A DNA stretch of 33,699 nt, from assembly GCA_025453745.1 (NCBI GenBank), contig JALOPS010000005.1, positions 1 to 33,699 on the forward strand, written 5' to 3'. The notes below the pieces were generated by a model. That model was not told where the DNA came from and made no database searches. It saw nothing but the letters and a program-made list of their open reading frames with translations. Source of the stretch: Gemmatimonadaceae bacterium. Lineage in GTDB: Bacteria; Gemmatimonadota; Gemmatimonadetes; Gemmatimonadales; Gemmatimonadaceae. The position numbers and the translations under genes are program-made. Every line of letters starts with the position of its first letter. Within the stretch, counting starts at the first letter, position 1. Positions 8,946 to 33,699 of the stretch are shown one piece after another.

Positions 8946-8954
8946 GCCGCCAAC

Positions 8955-9350: not shown

Positions 9351-9407
9351 GTGGCGACCTCGTGACGCGTGAGCCTGCGTGATGCACCCGCGCCGCGACG
9401 ACGGCGA

Positions 9408-10361
9408 TCAGTACTGTCGATCGCGATCCACCGTCCAGCGCGGCGTGGCACCTGCTTCGATCGAGGTCAGACACTCGAGGAATCCCGCCACCGTACCCTC
9501 GACGGTCGTGAGTCCCGAGATATGTGGCGAGACGATCACCCGCGGGTCAGCCCACAGCGGCGAGGTCGCCGGCAGCGGCTCCACGGCGAAGACGTCGAGC
9601 GCCGCAGCGCGCAGCCACCCGGCGTCGAGTGCGTCGGGAATTGCCGCTTCGTCCACCACCGCGCCACGCCCGCCATTGATGAGCACCGCGCCCCGGCAGG
9701 CCGCGAGGACCTCGCGCGTGACGAGGCCGCGCGTGTCGTCGGTGAGCGGCAGCATGAGCAGCAGCCAGTCAGCGCGCGCGGCGACTTGCGTCAGTGCACT
9801 GACCGGGTGACGCTCGGCGAATACGGCCGCATCACCCGCGCCTGTGCGCGAGACGCCGATGACATGACAGCCGAGTGCGGCGAAGAGGCGCCCGCAGTGC
9901 CCGCCGACGTCACCGGTGCCGACGATGACGGCGGTGGTGCCGCGCAGCAGGTGTGGATCGCGCGGTGCCCAGCGACGCTCGAACTGCGCGGCATCGAACT
10001 CGCGCAACCGTTGCGCCACCGCAAGTGCGCGCGCGAGCGCCCACTCGGCGATCATCGGCCCGAATGACTCGCTCGAGCGCGTGAGCAGAATCGATCGATC
10101 GAGTTCGGTGGGGGAGAACCACGCGTCCACGCCAGCGCCGGTGCAGTGCACCCAGCGCACCGTGCCCATGGTGGGCACGGGTGGGCGCTTGAAGCCGATG
10201 TACGCATCGGCCCACGCGAGATCGTCGGCGGTGACGTCCTGATAGCGCGCGCCGCGGGTGTCGAGGTCGGGGCGCGCAGCGGTCAGCGCGGCACGCACCG
10301 CCTCGTGTTGGGTGGAACCGACGACGACGCGGCGGACAGGGAACAGGGCAGGCGATGCCAT
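9408..10361 (-). CDS. D-2-hydroxyacid dehydrogenase (NAD-dependent)
   Basis: This enzyme interconverts a 2-keto acid and a D-2-hydroxyacid with NAD(P)(H) in the cytoplasm. The nucleotide-binding glycine motif VGTGDVGGHCGR is at about residues 147-158. The catalytic triad is visible as Arg232 (NGGRGAVVDE), Glu261 (DVFAVEPLP) and His280 (VIVSPHISG). The 317-residue length fits the family, and the substrate is not evident. The stop of the VPS10-type gene (TAA, 10365-10367) lies 3 bp before ATG 10361; a GTG at 10364 is also possible. This near-overlap indicates co-transcription with the VPS10-type protein, though no functional link is obvious. The DoxX and M1 genes follow. Confidence 0.9.
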   Translation of the reverse strand: MASPALFPVRRVVVGSTQHEAVRAALTAARPDLDTRGARYQDVTADDLAWADAYIGFKRPPVPTMGTVRWVHCTGAGVDAWFSPTELDRSILLTRSSESFGPMIAEWALARALAVAQRLREFDAAQFERRWAPRDPHLLRGTTAVIVGTGDVGGHCGRLFAALGCHVIGVSRTGAGDAAVFAERHPVSALTQVAARADWLLLMLPLTDDTRGLVTREVLAACRGAVLINGGRGAVVDEAAIPDALDAGWLRAAALDVFAVEPLPATSPLWADPRVIVSPHISGLTTVEGTVAGFLECLTSIEAGATPRWTVDRDRQY

Positions 10362-10364
10362 CAC

Positions 10365-13751: not shown

Positions 13752-13903
13752 GGGCGCAGACGATTGGCGAAGCACGTGGCCTCGGTGAGGAAGGGCGGGA
13801 ACGCAGGCGGGACCGGTGCGCGACCGGCGTCGGAAGTACGAGAGTCCGCAGCAGAACCGCAAGGCGGGGCACCCGTTCCGGCCGGCCTGGGCCGCATGCG
13901 CGA

Positions 13904-13931
13904 CGGGGCGGCGCCTGACGGCACCGCCCCG
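13904..13931 (-). terminator. Strong 12-bp hairpin after the S8 protease gene, likely terminator
   Basis: The arms CGGGGCGG and CCGCCCCG plus inner pairs form a 12-bp stem with a 4-nt loop. It lies 29 bp beyond the stop of the minus-strand S8 protease. One inner pair is a G-U wobble only in the minus-strand transcript (it would be C-A in the plus-strand RNA). This supports selection for folding of the minus-strand RNA. No T-tract follows. Confidence 0.5.
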
Positions 13932-13960
13932 CACTCCGCACGCCGGTGGTCGACGGTCGC

Positions 13961-15169
13961 TCAGTAGTTGCTGAAGAGCAACCGATTGGGTGAGCGGCGT
14001 CCGGCGCTGGTGACGACGTTCGTGGTGCTGTTGCCGACGATCGCCGTGCGCACGGTCGAGGGGGACGCCGAGGGGTTCCCCTGCAGATAGAGCGCGGCCA
14101 CGCCGGCGACGTGCGGCGACGCCATCGACGTGCCACTGATCGTGACCGCCGCCGTGGTGCTCGTGTACCACGCGGACGTGATGCTCGACCCCGGGGCGAA
14201 GAGGTCGAGGCACGAACCGAAGTTGGAGAATGACGACCGCGCGTCAGTGCTGGTGGTCGAGCCGACGGTGATCGCCGATGCCGCACGGGCGGGGGAGTAG
14301 TTGCACGCGTTCGCGTTGCTGTTGCCGGCTGCGACCACGAAGGAGACGCCAGCCGCGATCGCGTTGTTCACGGCGTTGTCGAGCGTGGTGGAGGCACCGC
14401 CGCCGAGCGACATGTTGGCCACCGCTGGCTTCACGTGGTTGGCGCGCACCCAATCGACGCCGGCGATCACGCCCGACGTGGTCCCCGAGCCCGCACAGTT
14501 GAGCACGCGCACGGCGACGAGCGTGGTGCCCTTGGCGATTCCCCACTGTGTGCCGCCCACGGTGCCCGCGACATGGGTGCCGTGCCCGTCGCAGTCGTTG
14601 CCATTGCGCCCATCGTTGATGGCATCGAAGCCGGGCACCGCGCGCCCGCCGAAGTCCACATGATCGTAGCGGATGCCGGTGTCGAGGATATACGACCGCA
14701 CGCCGGCACCGGTCGCGCCGTAGGTGTAGGTCGACGAGAGCGGGAGCGCGCGCTGGTCGGTCCGATCGAGCCCCCACGTCGCATTCGTCTGCGTGGCGCT
14801 CTTGGTCATCTCCTGATCCTGCTCGACATACTCGACGGCGGGGTCGGCGGCCAACATCGCCTCGGCGCGTGCATCGCTCGTGCGGACCGCGAAGCCGCGC
14901 AGCGCCGAGCCGTACTGGTGGAGGATCTCGCCGTTGACGGCAGCGGCAAGGCGCTGCGACACGGCGCGCGGCTCGCGCGCATCCTCGCGGAAGACCACAA
15001 TGTATTGTCCGGGGATCGGCCGACCCGTTGGCTGGTCGAGTTCGTTGCCGAACTCCGCGAGCGTCGGCACGGCCGACGGATCAACGGACGAGGCAGGGGC
15101 GGTCGTATCCTGACATGCCGCGACGAGCGTTGCGGCGGCCAGGAGCGGGAGCGGTCCACGTGCGCGCAT
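13961..15169 (-). CDS. S8-family (subtilase, proteinase K-like) serine protease, lipoprotein
   Basis: This 402-residue secreted protease has the lipobox TLVAAC (Cys19), so it is probably lipid-anchored. An inhibitor I9-type propeptide follows (about residues 55-118, GQYIVVFREDAREPRAVSQRL to AVEYVEQDQEM). The catalytic domain carries Asp163 (YILDTGIRYDHVDF), His196 (DGHGTHVAGT) and Ser348 (SGTSMASPHVAG). Asn283 is in the oxyanion region (AAGNSNANAC). These spacings match the proteinase K subfamily. A GGAGAG ribosome binding site precedes ATG 15169. It is divergent from the class V aminotransferase, with 193 bp between the two starts. A related protease with extra PKD-like domains is encoded at 16872-18860. 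Confidence 0.93.
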   Translation of the reverse strand: MRARGPLPLLAAATLVAACQDTTAPASSVDPSAVPTLAEFGNELDQPTGRPIPGQYIVVFREDAREPRAVSQRLAAAVNGEILHQYGSALRGFAVRTSDARAEAMLAADPAVEYVEQDQEMTKSATQTNATWGLDRTDQRALPLSSTYTYGATGAGVRSYILDTGIRYDHVDFGGRAVPGFDAINDGRNGNDCDGHGTHVAGTVGGTQWGIAKGTTLVAVRVLNCAGSGTTSGVIAGVDWVRANHVKPAVANMSLGGGASTTLDNAVNNAIAAGVSFVVAAGNSNANACNYSPARAASAITVGSTTSTDARSSFSNFGSCLDLFAPGSSITSAWYTSTTAAVTISGTSMASPHVAGVAALYLQGNPSASPSTVRTAIVGNSTTNVVTSAGRRSPNRLLFSNY

Positions 15170-19316: not shown

Positions 19317-19524
19317 GGCAGTCTGGTGGGTGGACGGGACAGTCGCCGAGCGGTCTGAACGTGCGCACGATGTCGCGGCGCGGACAGGGGCTCGCGGTGC
19401 GCCAGACGGCGACGCACCTTGAGGTTCGGCGCGACGCCGCGCCGCCACGCCCCCGGTCCGCCGTTGGTGCCGGGTGCCGCCCCCGCCGTTTCGTCGCCCT
19501 GCGACGCTTCCAGGACGTCGTCCC

Positions 19525-22500
19525 ATGCCTGCCTCAGCTCTTCGCCGCGCGCTCGTCGCGCTCCTCGTGACCGGCGTCGTCACCGCCGACCTCCCCGCAC
19601 AGGACAGCACGCTCTACTCCGCGCTGCACTGGCGTCATGTCGGCCCCATTCGCGGTGGGCGCGCGCGTGTGGCCACGGGCGTGACCGGGCAACTGACGAC
19701 GCTCTACATCGGCTTCGACAACGGCGGGCTGTGGCGCTCCACCGACTTTGGCGCGAACTGGGTATCGCTCTTCGATGGGCAGTCCACCGGGTCGATCGGT
19801 GCGATGGCCGCCGCACCGTCCGATCCGAACGTGCTCTATGTCGGGAGCGGTGCAGGGATCATTCGCCCCGATCTCGCGGTGGGCAACGGGATGTACAAGT
19901 CGACCGATGCGGGGAAGACGTGGACGCATCTCGGTCTGCGCGACACGCGTATGATCGCAATGGTCGATGTCGACCCGCGCAACGCCGATCGCCTGTTTGT
20001 CGCTGCGCTTGGCCACCCGTACGGTCCGAATGAGGAGCGCGGGATCTTCCGCAGTACAAACGGGGGACGGACGTTCGAGAAGGTGCTGTACAAGGATGCG
20101 TACACGAGCGGCAACGATGTGCGCATCGATCCCTCGAATCCCGACGTGGTGTATGCGGCGCTCTGGCAGCAGCAGCAAAGCTTCATCGAAGGGCAGGGCT
20201 TTGGCGGCGGCAATGGTGGGCTGTTCAAGTCGGTGGATGGCGGTACCACGTGGACGCCGATGACGGCGGGGTTGCCGGCGGTGCATCAGGCAAACTTGGC
20301 GCTCGCGCCGAGCAATCCGCGCGTGCTCTATGTGATTGCCGCGGCGCTGCCGACAGCGGCCGGTGCGCCCATCGCGAGTGGCCCGGTGGGGATCTACAAG
20401 TCGGTCGATGGCGGCGCGTCGTGGTATCTCGCCGCGAGTCCACCGGGCGAAGGAGCGCGCACGCCCGACCAGCGTCCGCTCGCGCGCATCGGTGGTGGCG
20501 ACCTGCCGACGCTGACCGTCGATCCGACCAACGAGAACGTGCTGTACAGCTCGTCCGTCGTGCTGTGGCGCAGCGAGGATGGCGGGCGGACGTGGAGTGC
20601 CGTGCGCGGCGCACCCGGCGGCGACGACTATCAGCGCACGTGGATTCATCCGACGAATCCCAACATCATCCTCACCGCCACCGATCAGGGCGCGGTGGTG
20701 TCGGCCAATCGTGGCGAGTCGTGGAGCGACTGGTACAACCAGCCCACGGCGGCGATGTATCACGTCACGGCGGACGACGCATTTCCCTATCGCCTCTGCG
20801 GGGGGCAGCAGGACTCGGGTTCGGCGTGCGTGCCCAGCCGCTCGGGCGACGGCAAGATCACCTTCAGCGACTGGCACCCGGTCAACATCCAGGAGTACGG
20901 CATCGCCGCACCCGACCCGCGTGATCCGGACGTGATCTTCGGCAGTCAGCGCGGCAACGTGACGAAGTACGATCGCCGCACCAAGCAGACGGTGCTCGTG
21001 GGGCCCGACATGACGGCCGTGGGCCCCAACGGGGAGCGGTACAACCGCAACGTGCGCACGATGCCGCTGCACTTCTCGCCGATCAACCGTGACCTGCTCT
21101 TCTACGTGTCCAATGCGGTGTGGAAGAGCGCCGACCGCGGGCAGTCGTGGACGCGTATCAGTCCGGACCTCACGCGGCAGTCGTGGGCGGTGCCAACCAA
21201 TGCCGGGCAGTACGCGAGCACCGTGAAGCCGGCGCCAGCAGGCGCGATCACCGCACTCGCGCCGTCTGCACGTGACGTGCGCGTCCTGTGGGCCGGCACC
21301 GACGATGGCCATGTACAGGTGACGATGAACGGCGGCACCTCATGGACCAACGTCACGCCCCCCGCCGTCAAGCCGTGGACGCGCATCTTCAACATCGATG
21401 CGGGGCGGCACGACGCGCGCACGGCGTACGTGGCGGCCAACACGCTGCGCCTCGACGAGCTCACGCCGCGCTTCTATCGCACGCACGACGGCGGTGCCAC
21501 CTGGACGGACATCAGCGTCGGGCTGCCGCCGGATGCGGTGGCCAATTCCATTCGTGAAGACCCGCGCGTGAGCGGGCTGCTCTACGCGGCAACCGATCAC
21601 CAGGTGTGGGTCTCGTTCGACGATGGGAGCTCGTGGTCGTCGCTCAAGCAGAACATGCCGACGATTTCGGTACGCGATCTGCGCGTGAAGGACGACTCCT
21701 CCTGCCTCTGCAGCGATCTGGTGGTGGGCACGCACGGGCGCGGCTTCTGGATTCTCGACAACATCACGCCGCTTCGGCAGATCGCCGCAGCACGCGCAGC
21801 GCGGAGTGCCCATCGGGCGCATCTCTTTGCGCCGTCGCGTGCGGTGCGCGTGCGCTTCGCCACCAACGATCCCACGCCGTGGCCGCCCGAGGTCCCCGGT
21901 GGCGAGAACCCGATGCCCGGCGCGGCGATCGACTATCTGCTGCCGCGTGACGCGTCGCAGCCGATCACGCTCGAGATCCTCGATGCGGCGGGGCGTCTGG
22001 TGCGGCGTCACGTCAGCGCCGCCGCGCCGCTCGCGCCGCATCCGGGTGTGGATCCCGCGAATTACGACGCCGTCTGCAGGCGCACGCCGACGGCGCCGTT
22101 CTGCGCCTTTCCGCTCTACTGGCCCGCACCGCCCATCGTGCTCTCCGGCGCAGCAGGGATGCATCGCTTCCATTGGGATCTGCACTTCGATCCGGTCGTC
22201 GCGGACGATGAGAAGATCACCGGCGCACTCGACGCCACCGGTGCGGTGCCGCGACGGACGTATCCGTCACCGACGGCGCCGTGGGCACCTCCCGGTCGCT
22301 ACACCGTGCGACTCACCGTCGACGGCCAGCCTTACGAGCAGCCGCTCACGGTGCATCTCGATCCGCGTGTGCGCACATCGGCCGCCGGGTTGGCGCAGTT
22401 GCACGCGCTCACCACGTCGCTCTATCGCGGTGCGCAGGACGCGTATCGGGCATACGAGGCCGCACGTGCGCTCGGCGGACAGCTCGCCGGGGCGACAGAC

Positions 22501-22821
22501 GCCGACGCAATCGCGCTCCGTGCACAGCTCGACTCGCTCGCACCGGCGATGACATCGCCGCGATCGATCGCGGCGATTCGCCGTCGGCCCGCGGCCGCTG
22601 GTGCACCGACGCTCATGGGTGCGAGCGATGCGCAATTGGCGGCCGCGCTCGCGATGCACGACGCGGACGTGACGCCGACGGCGCGACAGCTCGCCGCCGC
22701 CACGACGGCGCGCGCCCAGGCGACGCAGGCGTTGGCGGCGTGGACGCGCCTGAGGACGACGAGGCTCGCCGCGCTCAACGCGAAGCGACGGGCGGCGGGG
22801 CTGCCGACGGTGGGGCAGTAG
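19525..22821 (+). CDS. VPS10/sortilin-type Asp-box beta-propeller protein, exported (paralogue)
   Basis: This 1098-residue protein has a signal peptide (RRALVALLVTGVVTADLPAQ). It opens like its paralogue with YSALHWRHVGPIRGGRARVATG. Asp-box repeats include STDFGANW, STDAGKTW, STNGGRTF, SVDGGTTW, SVDGGASW and SEDGGRTW. A cysteine-bearing segment CGGQQDSGSACVPS matches the paralogue's CGAQQDNSTLCGPS. The region after about residue 770 (HRAHLFAPSRAVRVRF, then GMHRFHWDLHFDPV) is a beta-sandwich and helical tail. Function is unknown; family members are often labelled glycosyl hydrolases or sortilin-like. ATG 19525 starts the signal peptide; an earlier in-frame ATG at 19474 would spoil it. The last 47 bp overlap the convergent permease gene. 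Confidence 0.86.
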   Translation: MPASALRRALVALLVTGVVTADLPAQDSTLYSALHWRHVGPIRGGRARVATGVTGQLTTLYIGFDNGGLWRSTDFGANWVSLFDGQSTGSIGAMAAAPSDPNVLYVGSGAGIIRPDLAVGNGMYKSTDAGKTWTHLGLRDTRMIAMVDVDPRNADRLFVAALGHPYGPNEERGIFRSTNGGRTFEKVLYKDAYTSGNDVRIDPSNPDVVYAALWQQQQSFIEGQGFGGGNGGLFKSVDGGTTWTPMTAGLPAVHQANLALAPSNPRVLYVIAAALPTAAGAPIASGPVGIYKSVDGGASWYLAASPPGEGARTPDQRPLARIGGGDLPTLTVDPTNENVLYSSSVVLWRSEDGGRTWSAVRGAPGGDDYQRTWIHPTNPNIILTATDQGAVVSANRGESWSDWYNQPTAAMYHVTADDAFPYRLCGGQQDSGSACVPSRSGDGKITFSDWHPVNIQEYGIAAPDPRDPDVIFGSQRGNVTKYDRRTKQTVLVGPDMTAVGPNGERYNRNVRTMPLHFSPINRDLLFYVSNAVWKSADRGQSWTRISPDLTRQSWAVPTNAGQYASTVKPAPAGAITALAPSARDVRVLWAGTDDGHVQVTMNGGTSWTNVTPPAVKPWTRIFNIDAGRHDARTAYVAANTLRLDELTPRFYRTHDGGATWTDISVGLPPDAVANSIREDPRVSGLLYAATDHQVWVSFDDGSSWSSLKQNMPTISVRDLRVKDDSSCLCSDLVVGTHGRGFWILDNITPLRQIAAARAARSAHRAHLFAPSRAVRVRFATNDPTPWPPEVPGGENPMPGAAIDYLLPRDASQPITLEILDAAGRLVRRHVSAAAPLAPHPGVDPANYDAVCRRTPTAPFCAFPLYWPAPPIVLSGAAGMHRFHWDLHFDPVVADDEKITGALDATGAVPRRTYPSPTAPWAPPGRYTVRLTVDGQPYEQPLTVHLDPRVRTSAAGLAQLHALTTSLYRGAQDAYRAYEAARALGGQLAGATDADAIALRAQLDSLAPAMTSPRSIAAIRRRPAAAGAPTLMGASDAQLAAALAMHDADVTPTARQLAAATTARAQATQALAAWTRLRTTRLAALNAKRRAAGLPTVGQ

Positions 22822-24169
22822 TCGGCGCGCCGTGCCGCGTACGCGCAATGCCGATGACACCACACGCCACCAGCGCCGTCGCGACGACCTCCATGCGATG
22901 GGCGGGGTGCACCAGCATCACGCCCAGCACCACCACGATGAACGCCATTGCTCCCAGCGTGATCCACGGGAAGCCCCACATGCGGAGCAGCGGGCGCGCC
23001 CCGGAGGCATCGAGCGCGCGCCGCGTGCGATACTGGCTCCACGCAATCACGAAGTAGACCAGCAGCGCGATCGCCCCACTGGTGTTCATGAGAAACGCGA
23101 ACACGCGATCGGGCACCACGTAGTTGGCCACCGTGGCGAGCACGCCCACGAGCACCGACCAGAGCACTGCGGCGCGTGGCGTGCCCGCAGCGGTCGTGCG
23201 ACGCCACGACGGCGGTGCGTCGCCCCGTTCGGCCAGCGACCAGAGCATGCGTGATGCGGTGTAGATCGCCGAATTCAGGCAGCTCGCCACCGCCGTGAGA
23301 ATCACGAGATCCATCACTGTCTTCGCCCCGCCGATCCCGATCACCTCGAGTGTGCGCTGATACGCGCCCACCACCGGCAACTGCGGGTCGCGCCACGAGA
23401 CGAGCGAGGTGACCACGAAGATCGTGCCGAGATAGAAGAGGCAGATGCGCCAGATGACCGAGTTCGTGGCCTGCACGATCTGCTCGGCGGGGCGCTCGGA
23501 CTCCGACGCAGCGATCGTGACGATCTCGGTCCCCATGAACGAGAACATCGTGCCGAGCATCGCGATCAGCACCGTCGTGATGCCGTTGGGGAGAAAGCCG
23601 CCGTCGGCCGTCAGGCGCGACACGCCCGAGATGGGGGACCCGGGCAGCACCCCGAGAATCGCGGCCACGCCGACGCCCAGAAAGAGCACGATCGCGACCA
23701 CCTTGATGAGCGCAAACCAGAACTCGAACTCGCCGTAGTTCCGGACCGAGAAGAGATTCGTGAGCGTGAGTGCCACCGTGACCGCCAGCGCCCATCCCCA
23801 CATGGGCACCGCGGGCATCCATGCGTTGAGAATGGCCCCCGCCACGTTGGCCTCGAGCGGAATGACGAGCACCCAGAACCACCAGTAGAGCCACCCGATC
23901 GTGAAGCCGGCCCAGCGACCGATCGCCCGATCGGCGTAGGTCGAAAACGATCCCGTATCGGGCGAGGCGACGGCCATCTCGCCGAGCATGCGCATGATGA
24001 GGACCACGAGCGTGCCGGCGAGTGCGTACGCCAGGATCGCGCCGGGACCAGCGCTCGCCACCACGCGACCGGATCCCACAAAGAGTCCGGCGCCGATGAT
24101 CCCCGCGATGGAGAGCATCGTGATGTGGCGCGGCTTGAGGCCGGTCGCGAGCGATTCAGCAGCTGCCAT
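22775..24169 (-). CDS. Amino-acid permease, GabP-like (APC superfamily)
   Basis: This 464-residue protein with about twelve membrane helices imports an amino acid with protons. The N-terminal motif KPRHITMLSIAGIIGAGLFVGSG is the family hallmark. The block MGRMLGEMAVASP-like (read as MRMLGEMAVASPDTGSFSTY) and IGWLYWWFWVLVIPLEANVAG are strikingly like gamma-aminobutyrate permease GabP as I recall it. The substrate could be GABA or a related amino acid, which remains inference. ATG 24169 starts nearest the conserved region; GTG 24202 would add eleven residues. It is divergent from a second permease gene (169 bp between starts). Its proline- and alanine-rich C-terminal codons overlap the end of the convergent VPS10-type gene. 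Confidence 0.88.
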   Translation of the reverse strand: MAAAESLATGLKPRHITMLSIAGIIGAGLFVGSGRVVASAGPGAILAYALAGTLVVLIMRMLGEMAVASPDTGSFSTYADRAIGRWAGFTIGWLYWWFWVLVIPLEANVAGAILNAWMPAVPMWGWALAVTVALTLTNLFSVRNYGEFEFWFALIKVVAIVLFLGVGVAAILGVLPGSPISGVSRLTADGGFLPNGITTVLIAMLGTMFSFMGTEIVTIAASESERPAEQIVQATNSVIWRICLFYLGTIFVVTSLVSWRDPQLPVVGAYQRTLEVIGIGGAKTVMDLVILTAVASCLNSAIYTASRMLWSLAERGDAPPSWRRTTAAGTPRAAVLWSVLVGVLATVANYVVPDRVFAFLMNTSGAIALLVYFVIAWSQYRTRRALDASGARPLLRMWGFPWITLGAMAFIVVVLGVMLVHPAHRMEVVATALVACGVIGIARTRHGAPTTAPPSAAPPPVASR

Positions 24170-24338
24170 GTCGGGCTGCAGCAGGACCGTGGCCCCCGGC
24201 ACGCTGGCAGGGAGGCGGCGCGGGTCGCGCCTGGGGTGCGGAGCATGTGCCCGACGCGATCATGCGCATGCGCCCACAGTGCCACCCGGTCTTCGGCAAG
24301 GGAAGTAGCTTCTGCGCGTCTCCTTCCCACCTCCCCGC

Positions 24339-25676
24339 ATGATGCGCGACGCGTCTCCGCCGGCCCTCAAGCGTACGATCGGCGTATGGTCCGCCGCGCT
24401 CATTGTCATCGGCGGCATCATCGGGAGCGGCATCTACTTCACCCCCGCCGAAACGGCGCGCGCCCTGCCGAATGGCGCGTGGATCATCGGCGTGTGGGTG
24501 CTCGGCGGATTGATCGCGTTGGCGGGCGCGCTCACGTACGCCGAACTCGGTGCGATGCTCCCCGACGCCGGGGGGCCGTATGTCTACATCCGTCGCGCGT
24601 TCGGTCCGCTGGCGGGCTTCCTGCATGGATGGATGACGCTGTTGAGCATTGCCAGTGCGGCGCTCGCCGCCGTCGCGCTCAGCTTTGCGAGTTACGTCGA
24701 TCGCTTCGTGCCCATCGCCGGCATCGGCGGGCCCGTGGTGGTGGCCGCGGTGACGATCGTGGTGACGACGGCGCTCAACATCATCGGACTCAAGCCCGGG
24801 GTGATCTTCCAGAACATCCTCACCGTTGCCAAGGTCGCGGGCATCAGTGCGCTGGTGATCGGCGCAGTGATCGCCTGGGGGCGCGTGGAACCGGCGCTCG
24901 TGAGCGGTGCACCAGTCGCGCCCGATCGGTTGCGCGGCTTCGGCCAGGCGTTCGTCGCCGTGCTCTTCACCGTGGGCGGATGGGAACAGATGAACATGGT
25001 CGCCGGCGAGATCCGTGATCCGTCGCGCACCATTCCGCGCGCACTCGTGCTGGGCATCGCCGTGGTCATCGTGGCGTACGTCGGGGCCAACGCCTCGTAT
25101 CTGCTCGCGCTCGGGCGTGACGGGCTGGCCGTGAGCGGAGCGCCGGCGGCCGACACGGCGACGCGCATCTTCGGCGACGCCGGCGGCCGGCTGATGACGG
25201 CGGCGGTGATGGTCTCGATCCTTGGCTTCATCACCGTTGCACTGCTCGCGCAGTCGCGCGTGGTGTACGCGATGGCGAAAGACGGGCTGCTCGTTCCCGG
25301 TGCGGCGCAGGTCCATCCGCGCTTCGGCACCCCGTACATCGCGATTTGCGTGATGGGCGGGTGGGCGCTGGTGCTGCTGCTGGCCACGCGCGGGCGCATG
25401 GGGGCGCTGCTGACCGCCAACGTATTCCCCGCGTGGATCTTCCAGGGGCTGGCGGCGGCCAGTGTGCTCGTGCTGCGGCGGCGCGAACCTGCGCTGGCGC
25501 GCCCCTATCGGGTGACCGGCTACCCGGTGGTGCCGTTGCTCTTCGTGCTCGCAGCGATCGTGGGCATCGTGAGTGCGTTCGCGAGCGCACCGGGCATGAG
25601 TCTGGTGGGCGTCGCGATGCTCATCGTCGGTGTGGCGGTCTTTCGCTGGCGCACGGGGGCCCGCGCTGCGGCGTGA
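24339..25676 (+). CDS. APC-family amino-acid transporter (LAT/SteT-like)
   Basis: This 445-residue integral membrane protein has about twelve hydrophobic helices. It starts LKRTIGVWSAALIVIGGIIGSGIYF, with the GSGI motif of helix 1. GGLIALAGALTYAELGAMLPDAGGPYVYIRRAFG covers helices 2-3 as in LAT-type exchangers and SteT. Helix 6 contains FTVGGWEQMNMVAGEIRDPSRTIPRAL, the usual substrate-gating segment. Substrate and direction (exchange or symport) cannot be read. Starts ATG 24339 and ATG 24342 are both possible. It is divergent from the GabP-like permease and ends 3 bp before the stop of the convergent hybrid kinase gene. Confidence 0.88.
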   Translation: MMRDASPPALKRTIGVWSAALIVIGGIIGSGIYFTPAETARALPNGAWIIGVWVLGGLIALAGALTYAELGAMLPDAGGPYVYIRRAFGPLAGFLHGWMTLLSIASAALAAVALSFASYVDRFVPIAGIGGPVVVAAVTIVVTTALNIIGLKPGVIFQNILTVAKVAGISALVIGAVIAWGRVEPALVSGAPVAPDRLRGFGQAFVAVLFTVGGWEQMNMVAGEIRDPSRTIPRALVLGIAVVIVAYVGANASYLLALGRDGLAVSGAPAADTATRIFGDAGGRLMTAAVMVSILGFITVALLAQSRVVYAMAKDGLLVPGAAQVHPRFGTPYIAICVMGGWALVLLLATRGRMGALLTANVFPAWIFQGLAAASVLVLRRREPALARPYRVTGYPVVPLLFVLAAIVGIVSAFASAPGMSLVGVAMLIVGVAVFRWRTGARAAA

Positions 25677-25679
25677 TGC

Positions 25680-27695
25680 CTACGCCGCGCGCGCGGTGGC
25701 AACGTCTTCGGCGAGCACGCGACGGATCGCGGCTTCGAGCACCTTGAACTCGATCGGCTTGAGCAGCACGCGGTCGGCGGGCAGCGCATCGGCCCGATCG
25801 GCGAAGACCATGACATCGCCCGAGAGCATGAGCATGCGCGCCGCCAGCGCCGGATGTCGCAGGCGCAACGCCGCATGCAACTGTTCGCCGTCCATGCGCG
25901 GCATGCGCAGATCGGTGAGTACGAGATCGAAGGCGCCGTGTGCCGCGTGCTCGAGGGCGTCCACGCCGTCCATCGCCTCGGTGACCACGGCGCCGCGACG
26001 CCGGAGGAAGCGCGCGATGACCGCGCGCACCGGCTCTTCATCGTCGACGACCAGCACACGAATGCCGGCGAGCGTACCGGCGGGGTCGACCGGTGGTGCA
26101 GCAGTCGCGACCGTCGTGACGAGCGCGGGCACGGCATCGTGCGGTCTCGCCTCGGCATCGAGGGCCGGCGACGTCGCGTGCACCGGCGCGCTCGCCGCTC
26201 TGACGACGTCAGCGCTCGCCACCGGCACGCTGGCGATGAACCGCGCTCCGCGCACCCCATGGCGTTCGTACCGCAGATCACCGCCCGCATCGCGCAGGAG
26301 CTGACGCGAGATGTACAGTCCGAGCCCATTGCCCTTGGTCCCCTTGCTTGTGGCAAAAGGCTGGAAGAGCCGCTCGACCATCGCCGCGTCCACGCCGGGC
26401 CCGGAGTCGGCGACGACGATCTCCACCATGTCGTCGCGCTGGACCGACTCGACCGTCAGCCGGCGCGGACGCGCCGACTCCCGCAGGGCGTCCACCGCAT
26501 TGCTCAGGAGATTCACCAGCACCTGCTCGAAGCGCCCCGGGTCGATCAACGACGGCGGCAGTGCGGGCGCGAGCCGGTCGACGAGCTCGATCTCGCGCAC
26601 ACCGAACTGATACGACACGAGGTCGACGGCCGAGCGCGCGGCCACGGTCACGTCCACGAGTTGTGGTGCGTCGTCGGTGGTGCGCACGAAGCGCAGGAGC
26701 CCGCCCATGAGCTTGCTCGCACGTCGCGTCTGCCGCTGAATGACGCGGAAGTCCTCGCGGGCGACGTCACCTTCGATCCCGTCCTCGAGGCGGGTTTCGA
26801 TGAGGCCACTGATGGCCATCAGCGGATTGTTGACCTCGTGCGCCACGTCGGCCAACAACTGTCCTGCCGCAGCAAAGCGTCCTTCCTGTCGTGCACGCAC
26901 GCGCAGCACGCGGATCGCCTCGTTGAACAGGCGTCCCACGCGACCGAGTTCATCATCCGCCAGTACGGGGACCTCGCTGGCGTAGTCGCCGCTCGAGACG
27001 CGCGCGAGCCCGCGTTCGAGCGCGCGAATCGGGCGTTCGAGGCGCCGCAGCAGCCACCAGCCCCACAGGCCGATGAGCAGCGCGCCAAACACGCTCCACC
27101 CGAGCGAGATCAGCGTGGCGCGGCGGACGATGGCGGCCACGCCGCGCTCGCGCTGCTCGAGATCTTCCACGGCGACGCGCTGGATCTGCGACAGGTTGAG
27201 CTGCAGCGTGGTGTGGACGCCATGCGCGGTGCTCAAGCGCTCGCTCGCGCGCGCCGTGCGGCCCAGCCGCAAGGCGGCGACCACCTCGAGCAGCAAGTTC
27301 TGCAGCAACGTGGTCTCGTCGTCGGCGCGGGCAAACATGGGACGGAGCGCGGCGGGCGTCTCGCCCACGCTCAGCGGCACCGCACCACCGCGTCCGGGGG
27401 AGAGTTGCTCGGCGAGGAGCGCCAGGTTCGCCGTGTCGGAGGGTGTCTGCAACGCGACATCGACTTGCGCCATGAGCCCGGAGAGCATCGTGGCCCGCAA
27501 GGTGATCTCGCGCACCGCGCGGAGTGCCGGCGCACCGTCACGCGGCAAGGCATCGGTTTGCGGACGCACGACCAGCGCGAGCCAGAGCACCAGCGCGCCG
27601 ACATACGCGGCCGTGGCCGCGATGCCGATCGCCAGCAGTTGACGGAGCGAGAGCTGTCGCCGAAGCGGCGGCGCCGTCTCAGCGGGCAGCGACAT
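25680..27695 (-). CDS. Hybrid sensor histidine kinase with C-terminal receiver domain
   Basis: This 671-residue inner-membrane sensor has TM1 at about residues 19-42, a roughly 150-residue helical periplasmic sensor region, and TM2 at about 194-216. A HAMP-like linker follows at about 217-270. The HisKA domain has His286 in DVAHEVNNPLMAI. The ATPase domain shows the N box (NLLSNAVDAL, Asn395 region), G1 (DSGPGVD, about 430) and G2 (GNGLGLYISRQL). A linker of about 45 residues leads to a receiver domain (about 545-662) with the acidic pair DDEE, phospho-acceptor Asp595 (LVLTDLRMP) and Lys646. There is no output domain, so signal must pass to an HPt or response regulator not found here. Its start overlaps the upstream binding-protein gene by 17 bp, which suggests that protein is its sensing partner. 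Confidence 0.93.
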   Translation of the reverse strand: MSLPAETAPPLRRQLSLRQLLAIGIAATAAYVGALVLWLALVVRPQTDALPRDGAPALRAVREITLRATMLSGLMAQVDVALQTPSDTANLALLAEQLSPGRGGAVPLSVGETPAALRPMFARADDETTLLQNLLLEVVAALRLGRTARASERLSTAHGVHTTLQLNLSQIQRVAVEDLEQRERGVAAIVRRATLISLGWSVFGALLIGLWGWWLLRRLERPIRALERGLARVSSGDYASEVPVLADDELGRVGRLFNEAIRVLRVRARQEGRFAAAGQLLADVAHEVNNPLMAISGLIETRLEDGIEGDVAREDFRVIQRQTRRASKLMGGLLRFVRTTDDAPQLVDVTVAARSAVDLVSYQFGVREIELVDRLAPALPPSLIDPGRFEQVLVNLLSNAVDALRESARPRRLTVESVQRDDMVEIVVADSGPGVDAAMVERLFQPFATSKGTKGNGLGLYISRQLLRDAGGDLRYERHGVRGARFIASVPVASADVVRAASAPVHATSPALDAEARPHDAVPALVTTVATAAPPVDPAGTLAGIRVLVVDDEEPVRAVIARFLRRRGAVVTEAMDGVDALEHAAHGAFDLVLTDLRMPRMDGEQLHAALRLRHPALAARMLMLSGDVMVFADRADALPADRVLLKPIEFKVLEAAIRRVLAEDVATARAA

Positions 27696-28761
27696 GGATC
27701 GCCTCGGCGGTGGGTCGCAACATGACGAGCGGTCGCCGCGTGTCGGGTGTGAACGCCACGGGCCCGACGAGCCCGGTCCACGGCGCGCGCGTGCGGCCGA
27801 GCGACTCGAGCCACCGGGTCACCTGGGCGGGCGTGCGCTGTCCGTCTTCAACCGCGGCCACCAGCAGTTGGGCCGCGTCGTACTTGAGCGCGTCGATCGG
27901 GGCCGGGTGCTCGCCCGTGATCGCACGCCACGACGCCACGAACGCGGAGTCGCGCACGTTGCCCACCCGCGGCCACCAGAACGTGGCGACATAGACCGGC
28001 ACGCGCGGGTTCACCACACGCGAGAGCGAGATCGGGTTTCCTCCTGCGCCGTCCCCCATGACGACGGGGACACCCGGCATGCGGTGCGCCAACTCCGAGA
28101 CGATGACGCGCGAGTCCTTCTCACGACCGGCCAGCAGGATCACATCCGGCCGTGCGCGCGAGGCGTGCGCCTCGAGCAGCAGAGCGATATCGCCTTCTTC
28201 GCTGTACGGGACCTCGGCGCGCACCGCGATGCCCACGGCCTCCGCCCCCGTGCGCATGCCGTCACGCAGCCCGACGCCGTATGCGTCGTTGATGTAGAGA
28301 ATCCACGCCGACCGCGCGTGCAGCGAATCATGGGCGAAGCGGGCGATGTAGCCGCCTTCGATCGAATCGTTGGGGACGAGCACGAACGCGTTGGACTCCT
28401 CACGCAGCAGGCGGCTCGTGCTGGTGGGCACCACGAGCGGCACGCCGGCGCGGCGATAGATCGGCGCCGCCGCGAGTGTCGTGCGGCTGCTCGAGTGCCC
28501 GACGACGCCGATGAGCCCCGGCTCTTCCACGAGACGCTCGGCGCGCGTGACGGCGCTGCGCATGTCCTGGTCGCCCCATCGGCTCGAGTCGAAGACGATG
28601 CGCACCCGCTGCGTGTCTGCCGAGAGCTGCTCGAGCTCTGCAGCGTGGCCGACCGATCCGAAGCCGATGGCGGGTCGCGGTGGTTGCGGCCGTTCGCAGG
28701 CGACGAGCATCGCCAGCGTCGTCGCGATCGGTACACCCCGCCGGATCCTGAGCCGCGTCAT
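27679..28761 (-). CDS. Leu/Ile/Val-type periplasmic substrate-binding lipoprotein
   Basis: This 360-residue protein has a lipoprotein signal (LAMLVAC, Cys22). Its two-lobed periplasmic-binding fold is of the type I (LIVBP/receptor-family) class. Visible marks are LIGVVGHSSSRTTLAAAPIYRRAGVPLVVPTSTS, then FVLVPNDSIEGGYIARFA and SAWILYINDAYGVGLRDGM, and late DALKYDAAQLLVAAVED. These stretches line the ligand cleft in amino-acid, urea and amide binding proteins. No ABC permease or ATPase gene is nearby. It is coupled by ATGA to the PstS-like gene upstream and overlaps the kinase gene by 17 bp. A sensing role is therefore more likely than transport (inference). Confidence 0.87.
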   Translation of the reverse strand: MTRLRIRRGVPIATTLAMLVACERPQPPRPAIGFGSVGHAAELEQLSADTQRVRIVFDSSRWGDQDMRSAVTRAERLVEEPGLIGVVGHSSSRTTLAAAPIYRRAGVPLVVPTSTSRLLREESNAFVLVPNDSIEGGYIARFAHDSLHARSAWILYINDAYGVGLRDGMRTGAEAVGIAVRAEVPYSEEGDIALLLEAHASRARPDVILLAGREKDSRVIVSELAHRMPGVPVVMGDGAGGNPISLSRVVNPRVPVYVATFWWPRVGNVRDSAFVASWRAITGEHPAPIDALKYDAAQLLVAAVEDGQRTPAQVTRWLESLGRTRAPWTGLVGPVAFTPDTRRPLVMLRPTAEAIHVAAR

Positions 28762-29192
28762 GGCAGCACCACCAGCGCGCGTGTCCCGGGTTCGAGCGGC
28801 GTCGTCACACTGATGTAGCCGACGGCACCCGGATCGAGACGAATCATGTCGAGCACGTCACGCTCGGTCGCCCGCTCGCGTGGTGGGGTCCCGCGTCCGG
28901 CGAACTGCTGCTGCTGCCAATACGACCGCACCGCCGTTGCCGACTGGCGGATCACCGCCATCGAGAAGACCTGACGCACACGACTGGTGACGGGCAGATC
29001 GACCGGCGTGGCGCGCGCGCCGTGCCGCCACCGCGTCTCGCGACCGAGCAGCAGATTTGACAGCTCGCTGCGACCGATGGACGTGAGCGGGTTGGTCTCG
29101 TGCACGACGACGACATACTGCGCCTGCGCCTTCCTCGGTGCCAGCGCAGACGCGAGCAGCGCGCCCACGAGCAGCAGACAGACGCGCGCCAT
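28758..29192 (-). CDS. Short PstS-like (phosphate-binding-protein-like) periplasmic protein
   Basis: This 144-residue protein carries a signal peptide (residues 1-24, LLLVGALLASALAPRKAQA). One lobe of a type II binding-protein fold follows, with NPLTSIGRSELSNLLLGRETRW, then PVDLPVTSRVRQVFSMAVI, SYWQQQQFAGRGTPP and LDPGAVGYISV. These match the PstS-like group in which the I/L-x-x-I-F-x-G-x-x-x-W theme recurs. It is half the length of a true phosphate-binding protein, so it probably binds a ligand or partner protein but is not a full transporter component. The start shares one base with the TonB-receptor stop, and its stop overlaps the next start by ATGA. Confidence 0.8.
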   Translation of the reverse strand: MARVCLLLVGALLASALAPRKAQAQYVVVVHETNPLTSIGRSELSNLLLGRETRWRHGARATPVDLPVTSRVRQVFSMAVIRQSATAVRSYWQQQQFAGRGTPPRERATERDVLDMIRLDPGAVGYISVTTPLEPGTRALVVLP

Positions 29193-31195
29193 CAGAACGC
29201 CCACCGCAGCGCGGCCCGGAACGCACGACCATCGCGGGCGAGGACATCCTGCACATGTTCCTCGCCGGCCGGATCGAGCTGCGCCTGATCGAGCACGTTC
29301 CACACCATCAGATGCAGCTCCGGTCCGCTCGCCAGTCGGGGCCGCAGCCGAATCCCGACACTGGTCTGGTGCAGACGCGGGACCGTGGCATCGTCGAGCG
29401 TGCGCCGCACGCCGAGATGGCGATACTCGCCAAGGAGCTGCACGCGATCGGCCGCGAGCGGGATCGTCGCGGCTGCGCGGGCGACCGCGCGCGGTGCGTT
29501 GACCAGCACGACATCGGTCTCGAGGTCACGCGCCTGTTGCAGCGCGACATTGCCCTGCAGCACGACCCCGCGTCCGGGACGCGCGAGCATTGTGGCTTCG
29601 ACGCCGCGCGACTTCTGGCGATAGAGGTTCGTGAAGCGGAACACGTCGCTCCCCGGCTCGGTCGCTGCGCCAATGAGCCCGCGCACGCGCGCGTCGTAGG
29701 CGGTCAGCGAACCCTGCAGGCGCCGACCGAACGTGTGCTCGAGGGAGAGCTCGCTGTTGCGCATGCGCTCGGGGGCGAGGCCGTTGGCCGGCGGCAACTG
29801 CGTGATGCCCCCATCCGAGTAGAAGAGCTCGTAGCTGTTCGGTGCCCGGAACGCCGTGCCGTACCCCGCCTTGAGCACGCTGCGCGCGCCGAGCGTCCAG
29901 CGGAGCGCGAGACGCGGGCTGGTCGCCGAAAGGGTGCCGTCGTATCGGTCATGGCGGACACCAACGGAGAGTCCCACCGCGTCGTGCAATCGCAGATCGG
30001 CCTGCAGGAAGCCGGCGAGCACGCGCGAGGACGGGCGCAGGTCCACGATGGGATCGACCAGATTCGTCTGTGTGACCTCCAGCCGCTCGGACATCGTTCC
30101 GCGGTACTCGCCGCCCATCGTGATCGTGTGGCCGGCGCCGACGAAGCGGAGGTACTGCCCCTCGAGCATCGCCGTACGCGACGCGAGATGCTCCGTGAGC
30201 ACACCATCATCGTACGCGTAGTCGCCAACTTCGCGCCCGTCGACCACCGACGCCGTGGCCCACAGTCGCGAGAGATCGGTGAACGCCCGCTCGTACTGCA
30301 CCGAGAGCAAGCCGATGCGCTCGCGCGACTCCGTGCGCGGGTCGCCCGGCGTGGTTTCGTACGATCCGGTCGGCACGCCTTTGTGGCGGTTCGCGAGGGC
30401 GCCGAGCAGATGGAAGTTGCCGGCGCGCACGGTCGCGAGCATGCGTGCGGACGCGTCGTCGTCGAGCCCGCGCACAACACCATCGGGGAGCGCCGGGCCG
30501 GCGAGGTCGGGGTAGCGCAGGTCACCACCGCGACTCCGCGCACCGCTGGCAAACAGCGCTACGTCGAGCCCGTTCGGCCGTTGCGTGCCATAGGCCACCG
30601 TGGCGCGCGCGGCGTTGCCGCTGAGCAGATCGGCCCGCGCGACGGCTCCCGCCAGCGCGGCGCCGCGCCGCGTGATGATGTTGATCACACCATAGAACGC
30701 ATTCGTGCCGTAGAGCGAGGAGCCGGGACCGTGCATCACCTCCACGCGCTCGATCATCTCGACGTCGATCAGGGCATCGGTGCCGATGGCCGAGACGTCG
30801 TCGTGCATGAAGTTCGTGCGTCGTCCATCGACGAGCAGCAGGACGCGCGTGTTGAAGTCTCCCGAGCGATGCACGCCGCGGACATTCACGTACGAGAACT
30901 GCCGGTCGTTCGTCGTGAACATGCCGCGGACGGCGCCCAACACCTCATCGAGCGTGCGGTATCCGAAGCGCCAGATCTCGTCGGCCGTGAGCACCGTGAC
31001 GGTGGACGGCGCGTCGGCGGCGGACTGCGCGTAACGCGACGGGCTGAAGACGAGCGCCGGCGCGCCGACAGTGTCCACCGACTGCGCGCGCACAAGTGAT
31101 GGCGCGACGGCGAGCAGGAGTGCGACACAACGCGCCAGACCACGCGGGCGGTGGCTGGCGCGCACGAAGCGAGAAGAGAAGTCCAGTTCGTTCAC
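29192..31195 (-). CDS. TonB-dependent outer-membrane receptor
   Basis: This protein of about 667 residues imports or senses a ligand across the outer membrane using TonB energy. After a signal peptide (CVALLLAVAPSLVRAQ) comes the plug domain. It has TVLTADEIWRFGYRTLDEVLGAVRGM, then VNVRGVHRSGDFNTRVLLLVDGRR and MIERVEVMHGPGSSLYGTNAFYGVINIITRRG, all classical plug motifs. The 22-strand barrel follows, including YGTAFRAPNSYELFYSDGG and the C-terminal aromatic RAALRWAF. The start is unsettled: GTG codons at 31273, 31195 and 31165 are all in frame without a strong ribosome binding site, and 31195 is my choice. I see no cobalamin or other riboswitch upstream. It is the first gene of the sensor operon. 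Confidence 0.9.
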   Translation of the reverse strand: MNELDFSSRFVRASHRPRGLARCVALLLAVAPSLVRAQSVDTVGAPALVFSPSRYAQSAADAPSTVTVLTADEIWRFGYRTLDEVLGAVRGMFTTNDRQFSYVNVRGVHRSGDFNTRVLLLVDGRRTNFMHDDVSAIGTDALIDVEMIERVEVMHGPGSSLYGTNAFYGVINIITRRGAALAGAVARADLLSGNAARATVAYGTQRPNGLDVALFASGARSRGGDLRYPDLAGPALPDGVVRGLDDDASARMLATVRAGNFHLLGALANRHKGVPTGSYETTPGDPRTESRERIGLLSVQYERAFTDLSRLWATASVVDGREVGDYAYDDGVLTEHLASRTAMLEGQYLRFVGAGHTITMGGEYRGTMSERLEVTQTNLVDPIVDLRPSSRVLAGFLQADLRLHDAVGLSVGVRHDRYDGTLSATSPRLALRWTLGARSVLKAGYGTAFRAPNSYELFYSDGGITQLPPANGLAPERMRNSELSLEHTFGRRLQGSLTAYDARVRGLIGAATEPGSDVFRFTNLYRQKSRGVEATMLARPGRGVVLQGNVALQQARDLETDVVLVNAPRAVARAAATIPLAADRVQLLGEYRHLGVRRTLDDATVPRLHQTSVGIRLRPRLASGPELHLMVWNVLDQAQLDPAGEEHVQDVLARDGRAFRAALRWAF

Positions 31196-31386
31196 GGGGC
31201 GGTCGATCGGGGAGGGGGGCGCAACACGCCACTCGCTCACTCCGGAAGGACGATCCAGCCGTCGCCGTGACACATCAAAACGTCACGTCCGCGTGCCACG
31301 GGAGTGACGAGCGTGGCCACGCTGGAGCGGACGGGCTGGATCACCGGGTCCGAGGGTGCACACGGCGTGCGCGTCGTACGGCCCGC

Positions 31387-31427
31387 TCGCCGGACCGGCG
31401 AACTGCCCCCCGCGTCGAGCCGGGGGC
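31387..31427 (-). terminator. Two adjacent GC-rich hairpins after the cyclophilin gene, possible terminator
   Basis: Immediately beyond the cyclophilin stop, GCCCCC (31405-31410) pairs with GGGGGC (31422-31427). Next to it, TCGCCGG and CCGGCGA form a near-perfect palindrome (31387-31401). Both stems sit between the cyclophilin gene and the TonB-receptor gene on the same strand. No T-tract is seen, so this is a positional inference. Confidence 0.4.
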
Positions 31428-31428
31428 G

Positions 31429-32118
31429 CTACGGCTCGACGCGCGCGCGAATCAACCGGTCGAGCCTCGGGAACTCGGCGTCGAGGAACCGGTTGCCCTC
31501 GGCAAACACGCGCCCCTGACGCCCGCCGCGCATGCCGCCGCCGGAGGTCTCGCCATAGCCTCCGTAGAGCCGGTCGACAACGTCCATCCCCTCGATCACG
31601 CGACCGAGCGGTGCGAACCCCTGCGCATCGAGACGGCTGTTGTCGACGAGCGAAATAAAGAGCTGGTGCGTCCGCGTGTCGGGGCCCGTCATCGCAAACG
31701 CGATCGCCCCGCGCACATTGGACGCGCGCACGCTGTCATCGGGAATGGCGCGCGACCGCCACACTGCGCCAAGCGGTGGATCGCCCGGCACGCCGAACTG
31801 CGCGATGAAGCCGGGCACCACGCGCGAGAAGCGTGAGTCATCGAAGAAGCCGGCGCGCACGAGCTGGTACACACGATCGACGCCGCGCGGCGCGAGCGCA
31901 CGCTCGAAGGCGACGCGAATGACGCCTTGCGAGCTCTCGATGCGCACCACGAACGTCGACGGCGCGGGCTGCTGCCAGTACGCGTCGTCGGGGCGCAACA
32001 AGAGGGCGCGTGCCTCGGCAGCAGCACGCGATGGCGCGGCCGCCGCTGCATCGCCGCGCACACTGCGCGACGAACGACACGCCGCGAGCGAGAGCAGCAG
32101 GAGCAACGCGGCCCGCAC
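31429..32118 (-). CDS. Cyclophilin-type peptidyl-prolyl cis-trans isomerase, lipoprotein
   Basis: This enzyme speeds cis-trans isomerisation of proline bonds and helps exported proteins fold. From GTG 32118 it has 229 residues. The lipoprotein signal VRAALLLLLSLAAC is followed by an Ala-rich linker. The cyclophilin domain (about residues 55-200) has GFFDDSRFSRVVPGFIAQFGVPGD with the catalytic arginine of the FxRVxPGF motif. It continues with IAFAMTGPDTRTHQLFISLVDNSRLD and GFAPLGRVIEGMDVVDRLY. Gln-Phe at QLFISL keeps the usual QxFI theme. ATG 32190 would add 24 residues ahead of the signal peptide; GTG 32118 is preferred because AGGG lies 7 bp upstream and the signal becomes canonical. It is divergent from the FMN oxidase gene. 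Confidence 0.85.
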   Translation of the reverse strand: MRAALLLLLSLAACRSSRSVRGDAAAAAPSRAAAEARALLLRPDDAYWQQPAPSTFVVRIESSQGVIRVAFERALAPRGVDRVYQLVRAGFFDDSRFSRVVPGFIAQFGVPGDPPLGAVWRSRAIPDDSVRASNVRGAIAFAMTGPDTRTHQLFISLVDNSRLDAQGFAPLGRVIEGMDVVDRLYGGYGETSGGGMRGGRQGRVFAEGNRFLDAEFPRLDRLIRARVEP

Positions 32119-32321
32119 GCCGCGTCCCTGCACGCGCAGGGCATGCAACGTACGACGGGCGCATCCAGCCGAAGGTCCGTATCGTGGCATGGCGGGAACG
32201 CTACGAGCGGCTGCGCGGCCCGTCGAGCGGACGGGGTGTGCGGCCGGTGCACGGGGCCGGTCACTCTCGACATGGTGCGCACGGGGTGGCACCTTCGCAC
32301 GTCTCTCTCCCCAAGGCTCGC

Positions 32322-33614
32322 ATGTCCGACGTGCAGGATCGTCGCCGTTTCCTCGCGTTTCTGGCCGCCAGCCCGTTGTTCGCCGGCGAGGCACAGGCGG
32401 CCGTGCGGCGACTCGTCGCCCGCGAGGCGCCGCGTCGCGATACGCTCGATTTCGCCGTGCAGCTCGTCGATGCGTCGCGGCAACCGACGCCCATTCGGCG
32501 CGCGGCCGACGCGCTCGATGTCTTTGACTTCGAACCCGTCGCCGAGCGGCGCATCCCCATCGCGCACTGGGGCTACCTGGCCGGGGGCACCGACGACGAT
32601 GCGACCATTGCCGCCAATCGCGACGGGTTTGCGCGTTGGGCGTTGCGACCGCGTCGCCTGGTCGACACGAGCCGCGTCGACGCCTCGGTGACCCTGCTCG
32701 GCCAGCGCTGGCCCACGCCCATCGTCATCAACCCGGTCGGTTACCAGCGCGCCTTTCATCCGCTCGGAGAGTTGGCTGTGGCTCGCGCCGCGCGCGCGAA
32801 GGAGCACCTGCAGGTGCTCTCGACCGTCAGCACAACGTCCATCGAAGACGCCATTGCCGCGCGCGGCGCGCCGCTCTGGTACCAGCTCTACCACGACGCC
32901 GGCGACTGGGCCCGCACGAAGCAGATCGTCAGGCGCGTCGAAGCCGCCGGCGCCTCGGCGATCGTGTTCACCGTCGATCTGCTGGCCGGCAGCAATCGGG
33001 AGACGCTCGTGCGATCCGCCCGTCGTGATCCGCGCAATTGTCTGACCTGTCACGAGGGCGGGCCACCGGTGCCAGGCATGACCGGCAATGTTGCGGATCG
33101 TCGCGGCCAGTCACGCATCCCGATGCTCAATGGCTATCCGCCGGTCCCGCGCGAGCCGGAAGTGGGGCTCGCCACGTGGGAGTGGGTGAAGCGTTTGCAG
33201 GACACCACCACGCTGCCGGTGCTGCTCAAGGGCATCGTGACGAAGGAAGACGCGGAGCTCGCGGTCGCGCAGGGGATCCGTGGGCTCTTCTGCTCCAATC
33301 ATGGTGGGCGCGCGGAGAACTCACGGCGCGCGTCGGTGGCGTCGTTGCCCGAGGTGCTCGAGGGCGCGCAAGGCAAGATCCCCGTGATCCTCGACGGCGG
33401 CGTGCGGCGGGGCACCGATGTGTTCACCGCACTCGCACTCGGCGCGACCGCCGTGGGCATCGGCCGCCCGTACATCTGGGGGCTTGGGGCGTTCGGGCAG
33501 GAAGGGGTGGAGATGGTGCTGGCGATTCTGCGGAAGGAAACCGAATTGGTGATGGCGCAGTGCGGAGCGCCGAGTATCGCGCGGATCACGCGCGCGCACG
33601 TCGTGGCGCGGTGA
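32322..33614 (+). CDS. FMN-dependent alpha-hydroxyacid oxidase/dehydrogenase, Tat-exported, with CxxCH motif
   Basis: This 430-residue enzyme oxidises a 2-hydroxyacid such as lactate or glycolate using FMN. The N-terminus DRRRFLAFLAASPLFAGEAQA is a Tat-type signal, fitting export of a folded flavoprotein. Active-site parts are Tyr85 (HWGYLAGGTDDD), YQLY (187-190), Lys303 (VLLKGIV), catalytic His327 with Arg330 (SNHGGR), and the phosphate site DGGVRRGTD (358-366) with GRP at 381-383. Residues 240-244 (CLTCH) form a CxxCH motif in the mobile loop-4 region. That motif is the usual site of covalent haem c, though a metal or structural role is also possible. The usual SNHGGRQLD reads SNHGGRAENS here. 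The electron acceptor is unknown. It is divergent from the cyclophilin gene. Confidence 0.9.
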   Translation: MSDVQDRRRFLAFLAASPLFAGEAQAAVRRLVAREAPRRDTLDFAVQLVDASRQPTPIRRAADALDVFDFEPVAERRIPIAHWGYLAGGTDDDATIAANRDGFARWALRPRRLVDTSRVDASVTLLGQRWPTPIVINPVGYQRAFHPLGELAVARAARAKEHLQVLSTVSTTSIEDAIAARGAPLWYQLYHDAGDWARTKQIVRRVEAAGASAIVFTVDLLAGSNRETLVRSARRDPRNCLTCHEGGPPVPGMTGNVADRRGQSRIPMLNGYPPVPREPEVGLATWEWVKRLQDTTTLPVLLKGIVTKEDAELAVAQGIRGLFCSNHGGRAENSRRASVASLPEVLEGAQGKIPVILDGGVRRGTDVFTALALGATAVGIGRPYIWGLGAFGQEGVEMVLAILRKETELVMAQCGAPSIARITRAHVVAR

Positions 33615-33699
33615 GCGGCGGGACGATCGCGCGGCGAGTGCGGCCTGCCGTGTCTGCCGCCTGACCGACGCTCCTCTTGCTGCCGATTACGTCGGCGCG

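Follow-up and report, generated by a model that had tools for sequence, protein, structure and literature searches.

In signal transduction, the periplasmic binding proteins LuxP, TorT, and AioX serve membrane histidine kinases as the first component, with no transporter involved (PMC5908839). VpvABC of Vibrio cholerae, likewise a signaling module, consists of a porin, a periplasmic binding protein, and a diguanylate cyclase, and its authors proposed that VpvA imports a signal that is then sensed by VpvB and VpvC (PMC12456836). Among TonB-dependent receptors (TBDRs), the TOL_0244 family has as its namesake neighbor the TOL_0243 family of YfiR-like proteins (NCBIfam NF053590 and NF053591). A search of a limited literature collection for modules made up of a TBDR, a periplasmic protein, and a kinase found none.

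The four-gene operon

The window analyzed here, a stretch of 33,699 nucleotides that forms one entire contig of a Gemmatimonadaceae assembly (4.7 Mb in 521 contigs, 81% complete), carries a minus-strand operon of four genes. On comparative-genomic grounds, we hold with moderate confidence that this operon encodes an envelope-spanning sensor assembled from joined modules and not a textbook importer. The first gene (29192 to 31195, from a GTG at 31195 to a TGA at 29192) encodes a TBDR of 667 amino acids. The second (29192 to 28758) starts with ATG and encodes a single-lobe PstS-like periplasmic protein of 144 amino acids with a signal peptide, and the third (27679 to 28761, also ATG) encodes a LIV-type (Peripla_BP_6) binding lipoprotein of 360 amino acids with the lipobox ...LVA-C22. 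The last (25680 to 27695, again ATG) encodes a hybrid sensor histidine kinase of 671 amino acids with two transmembrane helices, HAMP, HisKA, and HATPase_c domains, and a receiver (residues 547 to 658, encoded at 25722 to 26057) that is followed by no output domain.

The first-pass annotation had described four minus-strand genes overlapping by 1, 4, and 17 bases, and the sequence and translations bear this out. The receptor stop and PstS-like start share 1 base at 29192 in the junction TGATG, the PstS-like stop and lipoprotein start share the 4 bases ATGA (28758 to 28761), and the end of the lipoprotein gene overlaps the kinase start by 17 bases (27679 to 27695). None of the four reading frames is interrupted, each shows the codon usage of a coding sequence, and because they overlap, expression of all four genes is expected to be coupled. 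The reported lack of an ABC permease or ATPase also held for those larger genes of the window that were scanned with Pfam. The operon itself encodes no FecR-like protein and neither an Hpt protein nor a DNA-binding regulator, and no Rfam match at an E of ≤1, which might have given a riboswitch clue to the receptor ligand, was found in positions 22000 to 33699. Two APC-type amino acid permeases (Pfam) adjoin the operon.

The LIV-type lipoprotein and the hybrid kinase

The lipoprotein matches Peripla_BP_6 at 91 bits (Pfam), and its nearest solved structures are LIV/HAAT binding proteins (4mlc and 4gnr). It shares its superfamily with the binding proteins of LIV/HAAT ABC transporters (PDB 4mlc, 4gnr, and 1usg) but differs from them in having no permease or ATPase in its operon and in having transducer-linked relatives. 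Homologues were matched in 41 of 59 genomes, the searched set comprising the bacterium's own genome and its neighbors. When the best locus per genome was considered in 29 other genomes, with upstream neighbors identified only in part, the gene that follows was for a chemoreceptor (MCP) at 20 loci, for a histidine kinase at 7, and for a GGDEF protein at 1, while a contig end cut the remaining one; the overlap with the next gene was exactly 4 bases in 18 of the 29, and in none was the next gene a permease. Because the homologues directly precede membrane transducers (28/29) and none precedes a permease, this lipoprotein subfamily is sensor-linked, which supports its initial interpretation as a sensor subunit. 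The lipobox Cys22 is followed by Glu rather than Asp. A residue other than Asp at this position favors outer-membrane sorting in Escherichia coli, a rule that may not be that of this host.

These neighborhoods also bear on the alternative that the operon serves transport, with the receptor and lipoprotein supplying an importer encoded elsewhere and the kinase only regulating the operon. The lipoprotein does have a genuine LIV-type fold, the two APC-type permeases lie alongside, the genome is 81% complete, and a more distant homologue in Thioclava sits in a complete LIV operon, providing a positive control for this alternative. We nevertheless consider it improbable, given that 28 of the 29 homologous loci lead into a transducer and none into a permease, and that a LIV permease was not found in the bacterium's own genome. 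The window's lipoprotein is the single PF13458 (Peripla_BP_6) match in that 81% complete genome, and the four BPD_transp_2 permeases present all lie within two nucleoside-type (Bmp-like) ABC loci, both of which carry their own binding lipoproteins, as assigned by reading the sequences. A LIV transporter elsewhere in the genome was rejected on these grounds. Thus, the complete LIV-type ABC transporter that the first-pass annotation had named as evidence against its own reading was not found in the genome, whose 81% completeness would allow for its location in a gap. APC permeases, moreover, are not known to use binding proteins, which further counts against transport.

The kinase sequence displays the catalytic motifs HEVNNP, N box, and G boxes, together with the receiver Asp and Lys. 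Its periplasmic sensor region (27111 to 27566, about residues 44 to 195) is, as originally estimated, about 150 residues long and is predicted by single-sequence AlphaFold2 to form a helical bundle between long transmembrane helices. We claim only a helical bundle for this region because the fold search with Foldseek gave no significant match (best E, 0.04, to NarQ). The region resembles the Adeh_2942 and Tar domains in shape, at nonsignificant Foldseek scores.

Kinase homologues with E below 1e-60 are present in 31 other genomes of the phylum. Comparison of 30 relatives showed that the full periplasmic domain is kept in all nine that follow a binding-protein gene, whereas it is much or mostly lost in 8 of the 21 with no such gene adjacent; many of these losses fall in one genus and so cannot be counted as separate events, and one of the unlinked kinases breaks off at a contig edge. 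In addition, distances between binding proteins and between kinase periplasmic domains were correlated over 13 linked pairs (Spearman, 0.70; Mantel, 0 of 2000), a value uncorrected for the species tree. Counting against a relay from lipoprotein to kinase, about two thirds of the relatives compared (21/30) have no adjacent binding-protein gene. Direct sensing by the helical bundle, with the lipoprotein as a vestigial neighbor, would fit the many kinase relatives that keep the periplasmic domain without such a gene. However, this lipoprotein subfamily repeatedly accompanies transducers (MCPs, kinases, and one GGDEF protein), in most cases with a 4-base overlap, and we regard direct sensing as very improbable.

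The TonB receptor and the PstS-like protein

Pfam identified only Plug and TonB barrel domains in the receptor, with no STN signaling domain. FecA-type signaling receptors have an N-terminal STN domain and a FecR-like partner, whereas the operon has neither; FecA-type transcriptional signaling was rejected for the missing STN domain. The best NCBIfam match was to the TOL_0244 family (NF053590), at 122.7 bits against a cutoff of 645 and hence far below equivalog level. The closest receptor relatives, which are not near PstS-like genes, are each the first gene in triads of receptor, periplasmic protein, and transducer. The periplasmic protein is an ABC_sub_bind protein followed by HK/REC at two loci (L130 and L132) and YfiR followed by HK/REC at two others (L131 and L133); a further locus (L135) has tandem TBDR-YfiR pairs upstream of a kinase, and Caballeronia and Paraburkholderia have the order TBDR-YfiR-EAL. 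The operon is thus like the TOL_0244/TOL_0243 pair and YfiBNR insofar as its receptor relatives form triads ending in HK or EAL proteins, but these systems have YfiR in the periplasmic slot that is occupied here by PstS-like and LIV-type proteins.

The PstS-like protein gave a subthreshold PBP_like_2 match of 16.2 bits (Pfam) and, used alone, no match in a sequence search of solved structures, whereas its family profile found PstS. PstS phosphate-binding proteins are two-lobed; in contrast, the 144-residue protein covers a single PstS lobe, and the family profile likewise matches PstS structures across one lobe only. Its AlphaFold2 model (pLDDT, 91.5) superposes on PstS 4exl at 2.2 Å over 124 columns. 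In the family profile, DLKAKSAVR stands opposite the phosphate loop NRAAGSGSR in lobe 2 of 4exl (R-x-x-GSG), and the phosphate-loop motif is not conserved across the family; PGAV-GY-S, on the other hand, is invariant across 15 diverse members. The protein is most likely no normal phosphate binder, and phosphate sensing was rejected because the protein has neither two lobes nor the phosphate motif of lobe 2. The first-pass label "PstS-like" therefore holds for the fold, a single PstS lobe, and misleads as to function. Of two Vibrio plasmid matches, the one inspected proved to be a true PstS operon.

Among 70 other family genes at fetched loci, an estimated 56 adjoin an outer-membrane-barrel candidate, barrels having been called by seed homology, C-terminal residue, and length, with weak Pfam backing for only part of them (Porin_O_P, Porin_4, OMP_b-brl, and BBP2). 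A transducer lies within three genes of 50 of these 70 relatives (25 MCPs, 20 histidine kinases, and 5 GGDEF proteins) in several phyla, an arrangement of the kind described for VpvABC in Vibrio; none of the 70 is next to a TBDR, which weighs against the sensor reading of the whole operon. For example, a Pseudomonas plasmid carries an annotated MCP, a porin, and a "phosphate ABC transporter substrate-binding protein" that is 25% identical to the window's PstS-like protein, and Caballeronia has an annotated hypothetical protein, a PstS-like protein, and an EAL protein in this order. At a second PstS-like locus in the bacterium's own genome (L085), a gene for a barrel-like protein lies downstream of one for a kinase. 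By their neighborhoods, the receptor and the PstS-like protein both belong to families that form modules of outer-membrane, periplasmic, and transducer proteins, in support of the first-pass relay reading.

Two recurrent arrangements can accordingly be recognized, one comprising an outer-membrane channel or receptor, a small periplasmic protein, and a transducer, and the other a LIV-type binding protein and a transducer. Because relatives of each half of the operon sit in their own transducer-linked modules, the operon most likely merges two recurrent sensing modules. The first-pass annotation had also named a nonconserved gene order as evidence against its reading, and the four-gene order was found in none of 394 other genomes of the phylum, a set that holds no congeneric genome. 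The original relay reading, from receptor through the binding proteins to the kinase, is therefore partly supported, with conservation holding for each half and not for the exact order, which was seen once.

This uniqueness would also suit two units on one transcript, with the lipoprotein and kinase acting as a sensor and the receptor and PstS-like protein as a coexpressed uptake unit outside signaling. Pairs of a binding protein and a histidine kinase do occur without a receptor or PstS-like gene, and 14 of the 70 PstS-like genes are in pairs with an outer-membrane barrel that lack a transducer within three genes. We judge this arrangement rather unlikely, however, since 50 of the 70 PstS-like genes are close to a transducer, receptor relatives occur in triads with a transducer, and overlapping frames throughout the operon imply that the four genes are expressed together.

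Proposed mechanism and comparison with known systems

In the sensing mechanism that we favor, a VpvABC-like module would have been joined with a module of LIV-type binding protein and transducer. The TonB receptor would import a ligand whose size or scarcity makes porins inadequate for its uptake, and the LIV-type lipoprotein, whose fold is assigned by homology, would bind it in the periplasm. The single-lobe PstS-like protein may act as an adaptor or reporter between the receptor and the inner-membrane sensor and not as a phosphate carrier. The lipoprotein would then dock on the periplasmic helical bundle of the kinase, as suggested by the strict gene pairing and by LuxP-LuxQ, TorT-TorS, and AioX-AioS, and shift the balance between autokinase and phosphatase activities. 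Phosphate would pass to the kinase's own receiver and from there to a partner that is presumably unlinked, since the operon encodes neither an Hpt protein nor a DNA-binding regulator.

More tentatively, the receptor, the PstS-type adaptor, and the lipoprotein may physically bridge the periplasm to the hybrid kinase and so belong to a broader class of modular systems. It is possible, although we lean against it, that such a class couples outer-membrane transport to inner-membrane signaling by combining an outer-membrane barrel with exchangeable periplasmic domains and exchangeable MCP, histidine kinase, or GGDEF outputs. If this pattern is true, outer-membrane uptake could report directly to chemotaxis, kinase, and c-di-GMP outputs via periplasmic adaptors that can be swapped for one another, and testable partners for orphan receptors could be read from gene order alone. 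Many small proteins annotated as "phosphate ABC transporter substrate-binding protein," as well as many LIV-type binding proteins, may be parts of sensors and not of transporters.

The operon resembles VpvABC in placing together an outer-membrane channel, a membrane transducer, and what may be, judged by description, a counterpart of the small periplasmic binding-type protein VpvB. It differs in that VpvA is a porin whereas the first gene here encodes a TonB receptor, in that VpvC is a diguanylate cyclase whereas the output here is a hybrid kinase (HK-REC), and in that VpvABC has no counterpart of the second, full-size LIV-type lipoprotein. With no porin and no cyclase, the operon is not a member of the VpvABC group. 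The hallmark of LuxP-LuxQ, TorT-TorS, and AioX-AioS, a binding-protein gene beside a kinase gene with transporter genes absent, is found here as well; LuxPQ, TorTS, and AioXS use other binding-protein families, and their operons are not known to include a receptor or PstS-like protein. By analogy, the operon would resemble in its working a combination of VpvABC and systems of the LuxP, TorT, and AioX type.

Repeated barrel, PstS-like and binding-protein genes

Three consecutive pairs of a candidate outer-membrane barrel gene and a PstS-like gene (encoding a single-lobe periplasmic protein) lie in tandem at 6772-12075 of locus L081 (G014:C1), as if specificities had been multiplied, and a tandem resembling this series was seen in Gracilimonas (L053). 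A second barrel and PstS-like pair is also present within the window's own genome (L085:7094-9039, contig C58), where one gene for a hybrid kinase and one for a receiver protein lie upstream of it. Doubling was likewise observed among the LIV-type binding proteins, two of which, in tandem, precede one hybrid kinase at L011/L074 (G014:C7).

Other neighbours of PstS-like genes

At L082:9301-11982 (G022:C1), a PstS-like gene adjoins a single unbroken frame of 893 codons that encodes a chemoreceptor and an outer-membrane-barrel protein. The barrel part has its own signal-peptide-like start, and the frame may have arisen either by fusion or through loss of a stop codon. On an Alteromonas mediterranea plasmid (L187), type IV CRISPR csf genes adjoin a pair comprising a PstS-like protein and a 386-aa protein.

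Other genes of the window

Two divergently transcribed APC-type amino-acid permease genes (22775-25676) adjoin the end of the kinase gene, a possible hint of an amino-acid-like ligand. Elsewhere, two very large Sortilin/VPS10-type BNR-repeat proteins are encoded at 10365-14213 and 19474-22821. On the minus strand (6291-8945), an M1 aminopeptidase is seemingly divided over two adjoining frames, the M1 domain followed by ERAP1_C, reflecting either two genes or a frameshift. A RES-domain protein is encoded at 5558-6139, with a small gene upstream; some members of this family are toxins of toxin-antitoxin pairs.
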